Origin: Flagellimonas chongwuensis
Lineage (GTDB): Bacteria > Bacteroidota > Bacteroidia > Flavobacteriales > Flavobacteriaceae
NCBI RefSeq assembly: GCF_013376415.1
Contig: NZ_WYET01000002.1
Span: 62,001-126,000, forward strand
Direction: 5' to 3'
Length of the DNA: 64,000 nt
Shown here: positions 9,839 to 15,496 of the stretch, piece after piece
How positions within the stretch are numbered: the first letter of the stretch is position 1
Layout of the letters: every line of letters begins with the position of its first letter
Made by a program: the position numbers and the translations under genes
Notes under the pieces: model-generated
Seen by the model: the letters and a program-made list of their open reading frames with translations, nothing else
Told to the model about the DNA's origin: nothing
Database searches by the model: none

Positions 9839-10897
9839 TTATATATCGCATCTTCTTTCGAGTAGAATTTTATTGCCATCGTCTTTGTACAACTTTATAA
9901 GCTCTTCCTCAAGTTTATACACCTGCCATTCTGATGAAAAGTCGGTGAAATTTTCAAACTCTAGCCTTAAGTTCACTGCTCCATTTGACATACTTGTGTT
10001 CCAGGCACCTGTTATCTCATTTGCCGTAAATGTGGAAAAAACAACAGAACCATCTTCTCTAAATACCATTAAATGTTCCAGGTATTGTTCACTGTTGTCC
10101 ATTTGGTTGCGGATTACCTGTTTTACCTGTAATGGGCAGGCCATTAAATATTGGTCCAGCTCGGCTTCGGAAAAATCGTCATCGCCAAAATCATTATCGT
10201 CATCCTCATCACATTCATTCTTTTCCAATTCCAAAGTTGCTATCAAATCGGCATTGTTTTCAATGACAACTTCAGTACCGTCATGTTTTGTTAGTGTAAT
10301 GGGGTACTGGAAACTGACCAATCGATTGTCTTCCAACTCCGAAAATACACGGTACATATCTAAATCGGTTTCAACTTGGATTTCGGAACTCTGTTGTACA
10401 TCAATCACAAAGGTGAACAAGGTTATGGGATATACGAAATCAACACACTCAATATCATCATCCCCCCCGCCTTCAATGCATTCACGGGCCCTAATCATAA
10501 GCTCTCCCTTATTTTCAATAGTGATTTGGCTATAATCCGCAAATGTTATTGTGACGGGAAAAACTATTTCTAGGATATTATTTCCCTCAATGGTAGCATC
10601 AAAGACTTCTTCAATTTTTTCAAGATCACTTTTGGAATTGATGCTGATCTCAACCCCATTTGCATTTACGGTGTAAGGAAACTCGACGGCGAAACAACTG
10701 GCTCCGTCCACAATATTGTCAAAAGAACCATCTTGGGAGGAGGTTTGTTGAATTAAACCAGCAATGTCAGATTTAGCTGCAATGGTTTGTTCTTGGTCGT
10801 TGCCCTCTACATCTTCATACTCCTCTTGACAGGAATACAAACCAATAACAGACACCATGAGCACAACACGCATCACATTGTCAATCAGCTTCTTCAT
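9839..10897 (-). CDS. lipoprotein with four related internal repeats
   Basis: The start at 10897 gives MKKLIDNVMRVVLMVSVIGL followed by YSC, an SPII signal; a longer ORF start at 10930 lacks this logic. The mature protein contains four similar units of roughly 28-35 residues: CFAVEFPYTVNANGVEISIN, LEIVFPVTITFADYSQITIE, CVDFVYPITLFTFVIDVQ and LVSFQYPITLTKHDGTEVVI, each ending in a polar N/D-L stretch. An acidic linker (CDEDDDNDFGDDDFSEAE) precedes a C-terminal domain ending in a Cys-containing tail. No family name is recognised. It is divergent from the ECF sigma gene, so it may belong to that regulon; this is inference. Confidence 0.85.
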   Translation of the reverse strand: MKKLIDNVMRVVLMVSVIGLYSCQEEYEDVEGNDQEQTIAAKSDIAGLIQQTSSQDGSFDNIVDGASCFAVEFPYTVNANGVEISINSKSDLEKIEEVFDATIEGNNILEIVFPVTITFADYSQITIENKGELMIRARECIEGGGDDDIECVDFVYPITLFTFVIDVQQSSEIQVETDLDMYRVFSELEDNRLVSFQYPITLTKHDGTEVVIENNADLIATLELEKNECDEDDDNDFGDDDFSEAELDQYLMACPLQVKQVIRNQMDNSEQYLEHLMVFREDGSVVFSTFTANEITGAWNTSMSNGAVNLRLEFENFTDFSSEWQVYKLEEELIKLYKDDGNKILLERRCDI

Positions 10898-10979
10898 AAC
10901 TATTGATTTTTTGGGGTTATTCTTTACCACTAAACAATTCTCGAAAAAAAAACCCTACTTTTCCTTAATATTTTTCAAA

Positions 10980-10987
10980 TATATTTG
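10980..10987 (+). promoter_or_regulatory. candidate -7 element for the ECF sigma gene
   Basis: TATATTTG matches the Bacteroidota -7 consensus TAnnTTTG and lies 23 bp before the sigma factor ATG at 11011. A clear -33 TTTG is not present. Confidence 0.4.
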
Positions 10988-11010: not shown

Positions 11011-11511
11011 ATGAGCAACGTTTGTGAAGAGCAAATTTTCAGTAAAGTTTTCAAGGCCCACTCCAAAACGGTCTTTAACTACATATTCTATAAGTTCGGT
11101 AATGAGGAAAAAGCAAATGACGCCGTACAGGAAGCATTTGTAAAGTTATGGCAAAACTGTGCAAAAGTGAGCCCGGAGAAAGCAAAATCCTACGTTTACA
11201 CGGTTGCCAACAACCTTTATTTAAATGTGATAAAGGCTGAAAAGGTGAGGTTAAAACATGCCGACAGCCTTGTAAAAGATAGAACCAACGAATCTCCAGA
11301 ATTTTTGATGGAGGAACAAGAATACAAAGAAAAATTGGACAATGCGCTTAATGCCCTACCCGAAAATCAACGGACCACATTTTTACTGAACCGAATCGAT
11401 GGTAAAAAATATGCAGAAATTGCAGAAATGGAGGAGGTGAGCGTAAAAGCCATTGAAAAACGAATGCATTTGGCCCTCAAAAGTTTACGGGAACATATTG
11501 ATGGCATTTAG
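11011..11511 (+). CDS. ECF RNA polymerase sigma-70 factor, FecI-like
   Basis: A 166-aa sigma factor with region 2 (KTVFNYIFYKFGNEEKANDAVQEAFVKLWQN) and region 4 (ALNALPENQRTTFLLNRIDGKKYAEIAEMEEVSVKAIEKRMHLAL), joined by a short linker with no region 3. It fits Bacteroidota FecI-type ECF sigma factors. A FecR anti-sigma gene starts 75 bp downstream, then a TonB receptor with an N-terminal signalling domain, so it probably drives the receptor when substrate is bound at the surface. A 14-bp palindrome lies between it and fecR. Confidence 0.93.
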   Translation: MSNVCEEQIFSKVFKAHSKTVFNYIFYKFGNEEKANDAVQEAFVKLWQNCAKVSPEKAKSYVYTVANNLYLNVIKAEKVRLKHADSLVKDRTNESPEFLMEEQEYKEKLDNALNALPENQRTTFLLNRIDGKKYAEIAEMEEVSVKAIEKRMHLALKSLREHIDGI

Positions 11512-11548
11512 CTATAGAATTTATTTTGAATTTTAAGTAGGGTATTTT

Positions 11549-11562
11549 AACAACTAGTTGTT
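11549..11562. promoter_or_regulatory. 14-bp perfect palindrome between sigma factor and fecR genes
   Basis: AACAACTAGTTGTT is a perfect inverted repeat centred in the 75-bp gap, 24 bp upstream of the fecR ATG. It may be a protein-binding site or the upstream element of a sigma-dependent promoter; the following GTATAACG resembles a -10-type box. Position and symmetry are the only evidence. Confidence 0.3.
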
Positions 11563-11586
11563 TGTATAACGTAAAGCATAGAACCC

Positions 11587-12501
11587 ATGCAAGAAAATTA
11601 TTTGGCAAAATGGCTGAGCGGAGAGCTTTCAGAGGATGAGCTTCGGGAATTTAAAGGCTCCGAAGCGTATGCCTCGTACCAAAAGCTAAAGGATGTTTCT
11701 AGTAGGTTGGTAGCTCCCGAATTCGATGCCGACCAAGCATTGCAACGCCTAAAAGATGAGTACATCGACAATGCGCCAAAGGTAATTTCCCTGAACCCGT
11801 TCAAGAAATTCCTTAGGGTGGCTGCAGTCATTGCTGTTCTACTTGCTGGCTCATACTTCTACATAAACACTTTGGACGAAAATGTAACCACAGAATTTGC
11901 AGAACGCTCCGAAGTTGTGCTTCCCGATGATTCCGAAATATTTTTGAATGCCGATTCCCAAATTTCATACAACGAGAAAAGTTGGGACAAAAACCGAAAC
12001 ATTGATTTACAAGGCGAAGCTTTCTTTAAAGTGGCCAAAGGAAAAAAATTCACCGTTTCCACCGACCATGGAACAGTTAGCGTATTGGGAACACAATTCA
12101 ATGTGGAAAACAGAAAAGGCTTTTTTGAAGTAACCTGCTACGAAGGATTGGTAAGCGTTACCTATAACAATGAAGAATTAAAACTGCCCGCAGGAAATTC
12201 ATTCCTTGTAATCGATGGCAAAATTGTAAGCACTGGCGCTCCAAATGGTAATTCCCCCTCTTGGATGAACAACGAAAGTAGTTTTGAAAGTATTCCCCTA
12301 AAATATGTTTTTGCCGAGCTGGAAAGACAGTTCAATATCCAGGTCAGCATTGAAAATATTGATACAAATCTTTTATTTACAGGTTCGTTTAACAACACAG
12401 ACCTAAAAATGGCGTTAAAAAGTATAAGTACCCCCTCCCAAACACGTTTTAAAATAGACGGAGACAACGTACTTTTTTATGCTGAGAACACACAACAATA
12501 A
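11587..12501 (+). CDS. FecR family anti-sigma factor
   Basis: A 304-aa single-pass inner membrane regulator. The N-terminal cytoplasmic part (about 1-75) binds sigma; a transmembrane segment FLRVAAVIAVLLAGSYFYI lies near residues 77-95. The periplasmic FecR core includes EVVLPDDSEIFLNADSQISY and GEAFFKVAKGKKFTVSTDHG, and the C-terminal DUF4974-type domain is FESIPLKYVFAELERQFNIQ onward. This is the normal architecture of Bacteroidota FecR proteins that relay signals from a TonB receptor. The gene overlaps the downstream receptor gene by 23 bp, implying translational coupling. Confidence 0.94.
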   Translation: MQENYLAKWLSGELSEDELREFKGSEAYASYQKLKDVSSRLVAPEFDADQALQRLKDEYIDNAPKVISLNPFKKFLRVAAVIAVLLAGSYFYINTLDENVTTEFAERSEVVLPDDSEIFLNADSQISYNEKSWDKNRNIDLQGEAFFKVAKGKKFTVSTDHGTVSVLGTQFNVENRKGFFEVTCYEGLVSVTYNNEELKLPAGNSFLVIDGKIVSTGAPNGNSPSWMNNESSFESIPLKYVFAELERQFNIQVSIENIDTNLLFTGSFNNTDLKMALKSISTPSQTRFKIDGDNVLFYAENTQQ

Positions 12502-15037
12502 GCATATAGGCCTCGTCCTCGGTGTTTTGTTTTTTCTGGTAGGCAACATCAATGCACAGGAAGAACAACAATCCCTTATTTCATACATAAAAAATATAGA
12601 GAATCGTTTTAATGTCAAGTTCTCCTATCTAGATGAGGATTTGGATGGTCTTTCCATCAAAATTCCAGAAAACCTAAATACCCTAGAAGAAATTCTTCAA
12701 TATATCAAGAACACCTTCAGCATTCAAACAGAAAAACTCAATGAACGATATTACACCCTCTCCACCAAAAATCAGGTCAATGTGTGCGGTGTGGTTTTGG
12801 ATAATTTTGCTGAAAACACGGTTATTGGCGCCACGATAGAGGTTTTGGGAACAGGCACCGCTAAAATCACGGACAATAACGGGTCCTTTTCACTGGAGAA
12901 CGTTCCTAGAAACGCATCCCTGCAGATTCGGTACTTGGGTTATGTGACCAAATATGTAAAGGTAGAATCCCTCTTGCAACAAAGCGGATGTCCCAAAATA
13001 CTTTTGGCACCTTATTACGAACAATTGGATGAAGTGTTCGTGTACAAATACCTCACCTCGGGAATTATAAAAGAAAAGGATGCCAGCATCACATTGAACA
13101 CCGCAGAGTTTGGAATACTCCCAGGACTTATTGAACCTGACATTCTGCAAACCGTCCAGGCCTTACCGGGGATAAAAAGTATTGACGAGACCGTATCGGA
13201 CATCAACGTTCGTGGTGGTACCAACGACCAAAACCTTATTCTTTGGAACGGCATAAAAATGTATCAATCCGGACATTTTTTTGGGTTGATATCTGCCTTT
13301 AACCCCTATCAAACGGATAAAGTGACCATCTATAAAAATGGGACGCCCGCCAACTTTGGTGACGGGGTGAGCAGCGTTATTCAAATGGAAACAGGAAATT
13401 CTGTCCCCGAAACTTTTAGCGGCGGAGGTGGTTTTAATTTAATAAGCGGTGATATTTACGCCGAGGCTCCCATAACCCATAACCTTGGAATTCAGTTTTC
13501 TGCAAGACGTTCTGCCACCGACTTTTTAAGCACACCCACCTACAAACAATTCATCAATCGGGCTTTCCAGGATAGTGAGATTACACTTCAAAACAACAGT
13601 ACCGTCGATGATGAATTTATACGTGATGAAGACTTTTTCTTTTACGATTTTTCCGGAAAAATCCTGTACGACCTCAACGAATATCACAAAATCAGACTGA
13701 GTGTAATACACATCAAAAACAATTTGAAATTTGATGAGACCAATGTTACGGCAGATGAAACCAACATCAGCCTATTGAAGCAGGACAATATTTCCGTTGG
13801 AGGACAACTCCAGAGCAGTTGGACCGATAGATTCTCCACACACCTGAATATGTATTACTCCAAGTACAATTTGGATGCACAAAATATTTATGACAATCAG
13901 GTTCAGCAGTTGTTCCAAAACAATCAGGTGATTGAAAACGCCTTAAAATTAAATACCAACTATATTCTGAATGATTCCTTTAACTGGAACAATGGGTACC
14001 AATATATTGAAACTGGTATTGTCAATGCCACTATCATAAATCAGCCCAGTTTTGAAAGTGAACTTAAAGGAGTAATCCGAACCCACGCACCATACTCACA
14101 ACTCAATTACAATTCTCCCGGGAATAAATTCATCGGGGAAATTGGAGCGCGATTCAATTTTATCGAGAATCTAAACACCTTTCAACAGCTTTTGGTGGAA
14201 CCCAGAATCAACCTGAACTTTAAATTGGCCAATTATATTAGGGCCGAAGTTTTGGGAGAATTCAAAAGCCAGACTACCAACCAAATCATAGATTTGGAAC
14301 AAAATTTTTTGGGCATCGAAAAACGCAGATGGATTCTTTCCAACGATAACACGCTTCCCGTGACCAAGAGCAAGCAAGGCTCGGTAGGCATCAATTACGA
14401 AAAAAACAATTTTTATGTGGGTGTCGAGGGCTTCTATAAAAATGTGGACGGCATCAGCACCAGCACGCAAGGATTCCAAAATCAATATCAATTTTCGGGA
14501 GAAATAGGAAGCTACAATGTTAAGGGATTGGAACTGCTCATCAATAAAAAAGGAGATAATTATAGTACTTGGTTAAGCTATGCTTACAACAAGAATGATT
14601 ACACCTTCGACTCCATTGTACCACAAACATTCCCGAACAATTTGGACATAAGGCACACCATTACCTTTGCCAGCACCTACAATTATAAGGATTTGAAGCT
14701 GAGTATTGGTCTTAATTACAGAACAGGCAAACCGTTTACCGAACCTGTTCCAGGCGATGAAGGGCTGGATGAGAACTTCTCCCCGCCCAGAATCAACTTT
14801 CAGGCCCCGAACAGTAGCCGATTACCTGACTATTTTAGGGCGGATGCCTCGGCCATATACAATTTTCAAATTGGTAGAACTATTCGGGCCAACGCCGGGC
14901 TGTCCATTTTAAACTTCACAAATAGAAGAAACAGCCTCAACAAATATTATCGGGTCAACCAAGATAATGAAATCGAGACCGTGGAAAACTTTTCACTGGG
15001 CATTACCCCCAATATGAGTTTTAGGGTGAGTTTTTAA
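12479..15037 (+). CDS. TonB-dependent receptor with N-terminal STN signalling domain
   Basis: An 852-aa outer membrane transducer. After a signal peptide (ending NINA-Q) comes an STN/secretin-like domain (about 30-95, SLISYIKNIENRFNVKFSYL), a carboxypeptidase-regulatory-like beta domain (VVLDNFAENTVIGATIEVLG onward), then the plug (LPGIKSIDETVSDINVRGGT, NGIKMYQSGHFFGLISAFNP) and a 22-strand-type barrel ending in Phe (MSFRVSF). The STN domain is the part that contacts FecR. It is a FecA-like signalling receptor rather than a SusC (no SusD follows). The ligand is unknown. Confidence 0.92.
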   Translation: MLRTHNNKHIGLVLGVLFFLVGNINAQEEQQSLISYIKNIENRFNVKFSYLDEDLDGLSIKIPENLNTLEEILQYIKNTFSIQTEKLNERYYTLSTKNQVNVCGVVLDNFAENTVIGATIEVLGTGTAKITDNNGSFSLENVPRNASLQIRYLGYVTKYVKVESLLQQSGCPKILLAPYYEQLDEVFVYKYLTSGIIKEKDASITLNTAEFGILPGLIEPDILQTVQALPGIKSIDETVSDINVRGGTNDQNLILWNGIKMYQSGHFFGLISAFNPYQTDKVTIYKNGTPANFGDGVSSVIQMETGNSVPETFSGGGGFNLISGDIYAEAPITHNLGIQFSARRSATDFLSTPTYKQFINRAFQDSEITLQNNSTVDDEFIRDEDFFFYDFSGKILYDLNEYHKIRLSVIHIKNNLKFDETNVTADETNISLLKQDNISVGGQLQSSWTDRFSTHLNMYYSKYNLDAQNIYDNQVQQLFQNNQVIENALKLNTNYILNDSFNWNNGYQYIETGIVNATIINQPSFESELKGVIRTHAPYSQLNYNSPGNKFIGEIGARFNFIENLNTFQQLLVEPRINLNFKLANYIRAEVLGEFKSQTTNQIIDLEQNFLGIEKRRWILSNDNTLPVTKSKQGSVGINYEKNNFYVGVEGFYKNVDGISTSTQGFQNQYQFSGEIGSYNVKGLELLINKKGDNYSTWLSYAYNKNDYTFDSIVPQTFPNNLDIRHTITFASTYNYKDLKLSIGLNYRTGKPFTEPVPGDEGLDENFSPPRINFQAPNSSRLPDYFRADASAIYNFQIGRTIRANAGLSILNFTNRRNSLNKYYRVNQDNEIETVENFSLGITPNMSFRVSF

Positions 15038-15112: not shown

Positions 15113-15127
15113 TTTATATAGAGATTG

Positions 15128-15496
15128 ATGAAAAAAAGAATCCATAACCGCAAAGAATTAGAAAACTACAGAAAAAAGTTACGAAAGAACCTAACCCCCG
15201 CCGAAGCTTTTTTATGGCGTTACCTCAAAGCCAAAAAACTACGAGGTAGACGTTTCAACCGTCAGCATAGCATCAAAAACTACATTGTTGATTTCTATTG
15301 TGCTTCAGAAAAATTAGTGATAGAATTGGACGGAGCCGTACACAATACACCTCAAGCCCAAGAATACGACGCAAAGCGCACTCAGGTTATAAATGAACTA
15401 GGTTATACCGTGATACGATTTGAGAATAAAATGGTGTTTGAAAACCTGGAATCCGTATTATCGGAAATTACTGAACATTTTAAAGAAAATCCATAG
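15128..15496 (+). CDS. DUF559 endonuclease-domain protein
   Basis: A 122-aa protein of the DUF559 / very-short-patch-repair-like nuclease group. Signature elements are NLTPAEAFLWRYLKAKKLRGRRFNRQHSI, YIVDFYCASEKLVIELDG with the conserved D..E-L-D-G core, and YDAKRTQVINELGYTVIRFEN. ATG at 15128 is used rather than the in-frame TTG at 15125. The gene stands alone between a receptor operon and argS, with a GC-rich palindrome on each side (15087-15107 and 15500-15520), as often seen for these short solitary genes. No methyltransferase is adjacent, so it is not an obvious restriction or Vsr repair partner. Confidence 0.88.
   Translation: MKKRIHNRKELENYRKKLRKNLTPAEAFLWRYLKAKKLRGRRFNRQHSIKNYIVDFYCASEKLVIELDGAVHNTPQAQEYDAKRTQVINELGYTVIRFENKMVFENLESVLSEITEHFKENP

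Follow-up and report, generated by a model that had tools for sequence, protein, structure and literature searches.

A repeat-containing lipoprotein predicted to be an output of a neighbouring FecI-type sigma factor in Flavobacteriaceae

The window, i.e., the whole stretch of 64,000 nucleotides that was analysed, contains the gene of a lipoprotein with four repeat units, divergent from the genes of an ECF sigma factor, a FecR-type anti-sigma factor and a TonB-dependent receptor. Sequence comparison gives good support to the prediction that the neighbouring sigma factor controls this lipoprotein as one of its outputs. The most likely reading is that it would also be located at the cell surface and work with the receptor. 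The full proposal, i.e., that the lipoprotein is the output of surface signalling of the FecI/FecR/FecA type, is probably surface-exposed and is a partner or a lid of the receptor, is favoured with modest confidence. The features of the lipoprotein gene are as follows:

9839..10897, minus strand: FP-repeat lipoprotein gene (352 residues; ATG at 10897, stop ending at 9839; relatives in 62 named loci)
9839..10930, minus strand: GTG-extended open reading frame, reaching up to the promoter; a GTG start is unlikely
10832..10897, minus strand: signal peptide, residues 1-22; the lipidated Cys is residue 23, the first of C-Q-E-E-Y-E-D
10577..10696, minus strand: repeat unit 1, residues 68-107, beginning at conserved Cys68
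10469..10576, minus strand: repeat unit 2, residues 108-143, including conserved Cys140
10322..10447, minus strand: repeat unit 3, residues 151-192, beginning at conserved Cys151 of the DDDIEC motif
10211..10321, minus strand: repeat unit 4, residues 193-229, with conserved Cys229 at its end
10172..10213, minus strand: acidic linker CDEDDDNDFGDDDF, residues 229-242, from the sequence; its start, CDEDD, is conserved in homologues
9842..10177, minus strand: lipocalin-like beta-barrel domain, residues about 241-352 (AlphaFold model and VIA-align; sequence profile to 4zgf)

Along the protein, four homologous units are followed by the acidic linker and a lipocalin-like C-terminal domain. A sequence-only reading had already described a lipoprotein with four internal repeats, and this is borne out by the lipobox (GLYS before the lipid Cys23) and by the alignments of the unit profiles. 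The acidic linker and the separate C-terminal domain of that reading are also found, the former in the sequence and the latter as a lipocalin-like barrel in the model. The unit length of about 30 residues was an underestimate: units have about 40 residues and their starts are 40-43 residues apart. The proposed F-P-x-T core holds as [FY]-P-x-T (FPYT, FPVT, YPIT, YPIT), i.e., its first residue is not always Phe, and the proposed DG-x4-I-x-N end has its literal form in unit 4 but not in the other three. The acidic motifs DGSxDN, DDDIEC and CDEDD are conserved among homologues.

Unit profiles were built from 60 homologues and compared with 100 column-shuffled controls. All 6 unit pairs outscore 100/100 of these controls, and the units thus align above background. 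U2-U4 gives the strongest alignment (hhalign E 7e-13) and U1-U3 the weakest (E 2e-3, probability 13%). The latter is only a little better than the top result of 12 comparisons made with further segments of this protein (U4 vs. a C-terminal segment: E 4e-3, probability 9%). Units 1+2 align with units 3+4 at E 6e-12. It must be added that Cys 68, 140, 151 and 229 enclose the units two by two; the true building block of the cassette may thus be a pair of units, each presumably closed by a disulfide (Cys68-Cys140 and Cys151-Cys229).

The AlphaFold model of the whole protein has a mean pLDDT of 81.5, and that of the cassette alone (197 residues) a pLDDT of 90.0 and a pTM of 0.81. In the models each unit consists of a short strand, a proline, a hairpin and a helix. 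Since the fold search with the whole model returned the C-terminal barrel, the repeat part was predicted and searched separately. The cassette model has no significant match in the PDB (best Foldseek E 0.034, probability 0.15; VIA Z <=3.5) and none among viral models at E<=0.001, and the cassette sequence profile finds none among PDB sequences up to E 10. A missing match of a predicted model is no proof of a new fold. Pfam and NCBIfam give no family above cut-off for the window protein, and the earlier statement that no named family fits is thus upheld. PB1 (ubiquitin-like) is matched at E<=0.1 by 11/85 cassette members (best E 1.3e-5), L004 scoring 18.5 bits, i.e., below the cut-off of 23.6. 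An eight-unit relative, L150, reaches DUF7767 (PF24962) at 35.6 bits for a cut-off of 27, via short stretches of less than 30 residues; the window protein has no match to DUF7767 in Pfam. A distant relationship of the units to PB1 or to DUF7767 is conceivable. L150 (6893-7891) is a lipoprotein with about eight FP units that lacks a C-terminal domain; it is divergent from a sigma-FecR-receptor set and has the same promoter.

The genes on the other side of the intergenic region are the following:

11011..11511, plus strand: ECF sigma factor, Bacteroidetes FecI-like (TIGR02985 119.7 bits, under the cut-off of 126.4)
11587..12501, plus strand: FecR-type anti-sigma factor (PF04773 4.6e-21, PF16344 6.4e-11)
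12479..15037, plus strand: TonB-dependent receptor (STN/FecR_C-like domain at residues about 30-90, CarbopepD_reg_2, plug, barrel)

The sigma factor has regions 2 and 4 (PF04542 2.5e-11, PF08281 4.2e-16). These domain matches, with an STN/FecR_C-like receptor N-terminus, agree with the initial description of a lipoprotein divergent from a FecI-type sigma factor, FecR and a signalling TonB receptor. The FecR_C-type (STN-like) domain of the window receptor scores 22.3 bits, under the Pfam cut-off of 24.4. Among 29 related receptors, 20 match FecR_C and 3 match STN (E<=0.1), and the N-terminus of L105 exceeds the FecR_C cut-off at 31.1 bits. On the basis of these comparisons a signalling domain is taken as probably present in the window receptor. 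Shorter receptors of 750-789 residues make up 13/102 (e.g., L031, L043, L105, L107, L111); those printed keep, by eye, the STN-like start and apparently miss CarbopepD_reg. The FecR_C-type start is confirmed for the receptors of L031 and L105. The small open reading frame after the window receptor (15125-15496, plus strand) is taken to resemble a DUF559/Vsr-type endonuclease.

Relatives were collected in two sets: (i) a named set from a contig profile scan (62 loci with 64 cassette copies, mainly Flavobacteriaceae); (ii) a sample of 395 whole genomes drawn evenly from the phylum. The two overlap in part (L021 and L104 are on the same contig, judging by its length) and counts are given apart. 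The cassette is matched at E<=1e-3 in 40/395 sampled genomes, i.e., 35 of the 41 genomes of the same family, among which G257 and G324 have half a cassette, and five genomes outside it. A pair-of-units profile, used for remote families, returned the same 40/395 genomes and added none. The lipoprotein family has no name; a full cassette is present in 33/41 sampled genomes of one bacterial family. In the window's genus, all genomes (36/36) have it. Two MAG records are named Algicola; their sigma factors fall within flavobacterial groups.

All 38 full cassettes of the phylum sample lie beside an ECF sigma factor, FecR and a TonB receptor (37 divergent within 700 nt, L125 at 2.0 kb). In the named set, 56/64 copies are divergent from the sigma gene at 700 nt or less; another 3 are located at the end of a contig, a further 3 lie 2.3-3.8 kb from the sigma gene (two of them second tandem copies), and L026 and L038 have no divergent sigma gene. 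From the phylum sample 49 places were fetched, the window's own genome being left out. In 41 the gene adjoins the sigma gene divergently, with FecR and receptor present; L125 is at 2.0 kb. The 7 others are six half-cassettes (L142-L147) and L148, whose gene lies upstream of the sigma gene in the same direction. Clustering of the open reading frames around the 38 full cassettes leaves the lipoprotein, sigma factor, FecR and receptor as the only ones found in 38/38. The window's genome contains seven FecR genes in 3.77 Mb, and chance adjacency is thus estimated to be of the order of one percent. The co-occurrence with FecI/FecR loci that was to be looked for is therefore general, nearly all homologues adjoining sigma, FecR and receptor genes. 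Neither of the two outcomes that would have spoken against the sequence-only reading, i.e., units aligning no better than background or homologues never beside FecI/FecR genes, was thus observed.

No FecR was found in the 14 kb pieces around the six half-cassette proteins. Among these proteins, five with one unit pair (L142, L144, L145, L146, L147) adjoin a different ECF sigma factor of 177-183 residues or are one gene away from it; in L144 and L145 a distant receptor is about 3 kb off. In 19 loci the four-gene core is joined by a block OB-fold (tRNA_anti-like)-(plastocyanin)-DUF5777-cytochrome c-YceI. The block is behind the lipoprotein gene in 10 loci (L031, L032, L035, L039, L043, L051, L060, L106, L107, L117) and behind the receptor gene in 9 loci of a single genus (L130-L138), i.e., co-directional with the adjoining core gene on a side that differs between lineages. 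In those lineages the block suggests redox or metal chemistry. For the window, DUF5777 was of no help as a clue to function: a search of the window's genome found none, and the control genomes gave none either, so that its absence is not shown.

Three promoter elements are found in the locus:

10930..10958, minus strand: predicted ECF-type promoter of the lipoprotein gene, GTAGGGTTTTTTTTTCGAGAATTGTTTAG
10980..10987, plus strand: TATATTTG, fitting a TAnnTTTG -7 element, 23 nt before the sigma ATG
11537..11565, plus strand: predicted promoter with the same two boxes before fecR-receptor, GTAGGGTATTTTAACAACTAGTTGTTTGT, 21 nt before the fecR ATG

The two-box promoter is GTAGGR, 15 nt and TTGTTT. 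The element TAnnTTTG, matched by TATATTTG, is the -7 element of housekeeping promoters in Bacteroidota. GTAGGGT is present on the lipoprotein strand in 29/71 dereplicated lipoprotein-sigma intergenic regions vs. 0.8 expected. When the regions are aligned on GTAGG, TTGTTTTA appears at a fixed spacing downstream; GTAGG[GAT] is found in 59/93 regions, own locus included. A weight matrix was made from 17 dereplicated lipoprotein promoters, with the 99% shuffle level as threshold and with similar training sites left out when lipoprotein promoters were scored. In the phylum sample a site is found before fecR in 36/38 loci, before the lipoprotein gene in 32/37, before the sigma gene in 2/38 and in the fecR-receptor gap in 0/38. 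The corresponding values for the named set are 35/55, 35/51, 1/55 and 0/50.

Many loci without GTAGG fall in a second class, C, whose box [TCA]CAGG[AG] (e.g., TCAGGA at -35) was defined after inspection of these loci. Where both promoters of a locus could be assigned, they are of the same class: GG 22, CC 12 and mixed 0 in the named set (62 loci, 28 of them with one or both promoters unclassified or unavailable), and GG 28, CC 2 and mixed 0 in the sample (38 loci, 8 of them with one or both unclassified or unavailable). Residues 128 and 150 of the sigma factor fully separate the classes (67 G vs. 21 C). Where the -35 box is TCAGGA (e.g., L106, L032), K150/R128 of region 4 become Y150/K128. The residues K/Y150 and R/K128 are thus candidate specificity determinants. 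Class C sigma factors form one clade (support 100/99), and the matched change of promoter and sigma factor is therefore a single evolutionary switch. A search of the literature on the ECF group, DUF5777 and FecR/Flavobacterium promoters, with bioRxiv and most subscription papers outside its scope, gave nothing usable.

The ECF-type promoter common to the lipoprotein and fecR-receptor genes, with matching classes at both, supports the early guess of a regulon member. It also bears on the possibility that the divergent arrangement is mere hitch-hiking with no functional link. The housekeeping genes ffh and folD do follow the lipoprotein gene, in the window and in 12/38 and 10/38 sampled loci, respectively. 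Nevertheless, this explanation, to which hardly any credit can be given, is already contradicted by the linkage, seen across many genera in 38/38 full cassettes, and by a promoter that is shared and of matched class.

The pattern GTAGGR-N15-TTGTTT occurs at six sites in the 3.77 Mb genome of the window, vs. three for the controls. Two are the lipoprotein and fecR-receptor promoters. A third is 59 nt before the gene of a DUF4382-CarboxypepD_reg lipoprotein of 302 residues (L199). The others are 84 nt before a glycosyltransferase-like open reading frame (by eye), 245 nt before an open reading frame of 146 residues, and inside an open frame of 634 codons. Three of the six sites are considered credible for the sigma factor. 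In 199 genomes of the family, 13 matches to the DUF4382 protein (own included) reach E<1e-60. The locus was available for 12 of these close homologues: a strong site (matrix score >=17; 99% shuffle level, 9.9) lies 56-78 nt upstream of the match in 5, and the other 7 lack one. The weaker matches number 44; 18 with the locus were examined and 0/18 have a site.

In the genomes searched, the exact 29-base pattern gives 47 sites in 37 genomes vs. 18 for the reversed pattern. By their coordinates, 16 of the 47 correspond to promoters of lipoprotein or fecR genes; another is upstream of an orphan, L143. The other 30 hardly exceed the control, and single sites in trans are therefore weak evidence. 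Twenty of these 30 were fetched: 5 precede lipoprotein genes (L184, L186, L187, L193, L198; lipobox by eye), no open reading frame lies within 350 nt of another 6, and the rest precede various open reading frames. L187 is a DUF4382 protein and L186 has no Pfam match. A relaxed search with one mismatch stays at background (17 matches vs. 17 controls). A broad regulon in trans is mostly rejected, the trans sites being near the control level. L143 (G367:C14:32989-33017) is an orphan half-cassette protein whose 14 kb piece has no sigma gene. The exact promoter lies about 28 nt upstream of the start of this protein; judging from that promoter, it is a possible regulon member in trans.

The following mechanism can be proposed: (i) a ligand bound by the receptor would, via the STN-like domain, make FecR free the sigma factor; (ii) the cognate sigma factor would drive two promoters of the locus, i.e., that of the lipoprotein gene and that of fecR plus receptor, the latter amounting to a positive feedback; (iii) as a rule it would not drive its own gene, and it would have a third site in the window's genome, before the DUF4382-CarboxypepD_reg lipoprotein gene located elsewhere; (iv) once synthesized, the lipoprotein would receive its lipid and be brought to the cell surface; (v) the FP-repeat cassette would dock on the receptor as partner or lid; (vi) the lipocalin-like barrel, or the modules replacing it in relatives, would capture the ligand. 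Steps (ii) and (iii) are supported by the sequence comparison, and the other steps are inferred. A different role under the same control would be that of a feedback element, the lipoprotein occupying or closing the receptor and thus limiting or prolonging the signal. Its promoter is indeed, together with that of fecR-receptor, among the three credible sigma sites of the genome (six sites, three controls). This role is however improbable: there is no sign of an inhibitory function, and lipocalin-like, FN3 or DUF4382 modules in several copies would not be needed for it.

Steps (iv) to (vi) of the preferred mechanism concern the protein itself. A lipobox with a lipidated Cys is found by a pattern rule in 103/113 homologue open reading frames, L063, i.e., the window's own, being excluded. 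In 87 distinct homologue N-termini, position +2 is Gln in 70% or Arg in 19%, and Asp or Glu is present at +4 in 91% vs. 53% of 105 control lipoproteins of the same loci. The control lipoproteins, too, are acidic at this place. Export signals are reported for Capnocytophaga, Bacteroides and Flavobacterium, with K-(D/E)2 or Q-A-(D/E)2 defined in Capnocytophaga (PMC5080379). The homologue N-termini resemble these signals by their composition, and the C-Q-E-E of the window is not the exact Capnocytophaga motif. The window lipoprotein is probably surface-exposed. The label of surface ligand-binding partner remains putative and is made plausible by this export-signal-like N-terminus, the lipocalin-like fold and the comparison with DUF4249 lipoproteins and their transporters given below.

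The C-terminal 112 residues are modelled as a lipocalin-like barrel (model residues 220-331). With VIA-align it reaches Z about 11 with 4nw4, 8u2f, 8ehc and 4qrl (rmsd 2.5-3.6 over about 90-105 residues), and its sequence profile reaches 4zgf weakly (E 0.004). The structure 8ehc is potempin E of Tannerella, which is among the best folds (Z 11.1, rmsd 2.6, 89 residues). The barrel could thus be an inhibitor of secreted proteases, the repeats being a simple anchor. This is very unlikely, since many other lipocalin-like folds, unrelated in function, score as well as potempin E, whose identity is 9%, and since the domain is missing from 15 of the 113 cassette proteins counted. In these 113 proteins, 57 have one lipocalin-like copy, 12 have two, 29 have three and 15 have none. 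Moreover, 22 separate open reading frames of the fetched pieces have the same domain; by their coordinates they adjoin the cassette gene or, in L154, replace it. The C-terminal modules of cassette relatives are lipocalin-like, FN3, DUF4382 or none, and L053 has DUF4382-CarboxypepD_reg fused behind the repeat cassette.

The receptor was also taken as the starting point, two candidates being scored per genome. The sample contains 43 receptor matches above 640 bits, 39 within cassette loci and 4 without an FP-repeat gene. In G107 a very similar sigma-FecR-receptor set has no open reading frame of at least 90 residues in the lipoprotein slot, and no cassette was found in the genome; this receptor can thus do without it. 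The slot of the three others is filled by a divergent lipocalin-only lipoprotein (G021), a divergent putative metallopeptidase lipoprotein (G312) and a co-directional lipoprotein without Pfam family (G088). The close receptor sets L154, L155 and L156 have, beside the sigma gene, a lipocalin-only lipoprotein, a putative metallopeptidase (Peptidase_Mx1) and a family-less lipoprotein, respectively. The four distant receptors examined at around E 1e-110 to 1e-123 (L158-L161) are each directly followed by a DUF4249 lipoprotein gene, and a fifth distant locus, L157, has neither an FP-repeat nor a DUF4249 lipoprotein. Since lipocalin-only, metallopeptidase, family-less and DUF4249 types were found in this way, the slot beside this receptor type is mostly filled by lipoproteins of several kinds.

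These data must be weighed against a second explanation, i.e., a sigma-controlled surface protein acting alone (adhesin, metal binding or protective coat) and making no contact with a receptor that only senses and imports. The wide variation of the C-terminal modules (lipocalin-like, FN3, DUF4382, none), the receptor set of G107 without lipoprotein, and the acidic motifs DGSxDN, DDDIEC and CDEDD, which could bind metal, are in its favour. On the contrary, a fixed partner is suggested by the constancy of the cassette in proteins whose other parts vary, and related receptors pair with DUF4249 lipoproteins. A protein acting alone is thus a serious but rather unlikely explanation.

If the lipoprotein is indeed a partner of the receptor, a bolder proposal can tentatively be made, though it is doubtful as a whole. 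The cassette would be a lid of TonB transporters that belongs to a novel class and has a novel fold (disulfide-closed pairs of strand-Pro-hairpin-helix units, 4 to about 8 units), and it would be a constant docking platform for swapped capture modules (lipocalin-like x1-3, DUF4382, FN3), under its own sigma factor with a very small regulon, i.e., platform, receptor and one module lipoprotein. Such a lid would be a structurally new kind of partner for transporters that are central to nutrient uptake by marine flavobacteria. The analysis in any case assigns the lipoprotein family a predicted regulator and promoter sequence as well as a small regulon, and proposes residues of the sigma factor that may determine specificity; the promoter could serve in a simple reporter for finding the inducing signal.

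FecI-FecR-FecA cell-surface signalling is known from E. coli. As in this system and its Bacteroidota versions, the locus has an ECF sigma factor, a FecR anti-sigma factor and a receptor with a putative STN-like signalling domain. It differs in that the sigma factor is predicted to control also a divergent lipoprotein gene having its own promoter, and in that the sigma promoter lies before fecR-receptor and, as a rule, not before the sigma gene. SusD lids are surface lipoproteins working with the TonB-dependent transporter of SusCD systems, which is the role proposed here. The SusD fold consists of helical repeats, whereas the window model has beta-hairpin/helix repeats; the window protein has no match to the SusD family in Pfam (threshold E 10) and none in NCBIfam. 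With lipocalin-like domains (Lipocalin_4, META, GH43_C; 4qrl, 5byp, 4zgf and 7kv7, SGBP-B), the modelled C-terminal domain shares the barrel fold (Z 8.6-11.4); as for the curated lipocalin-like Pfam families, relatives score below the cut-offs and the window protein has no match. PMC11003636 describes DUF4249 lipoproteins as paired with TonB-dependent transporters (BT2172/BT2173). The likeness is that of a lipoprotein partner of a related receptor family (L158-L161). The window protein differs from them by having no PF14054 match and a repeat cassette instead, and while DUF4249 genes are in the receptor operon, its gene is divergent and, as predicted, sigma-controlled.
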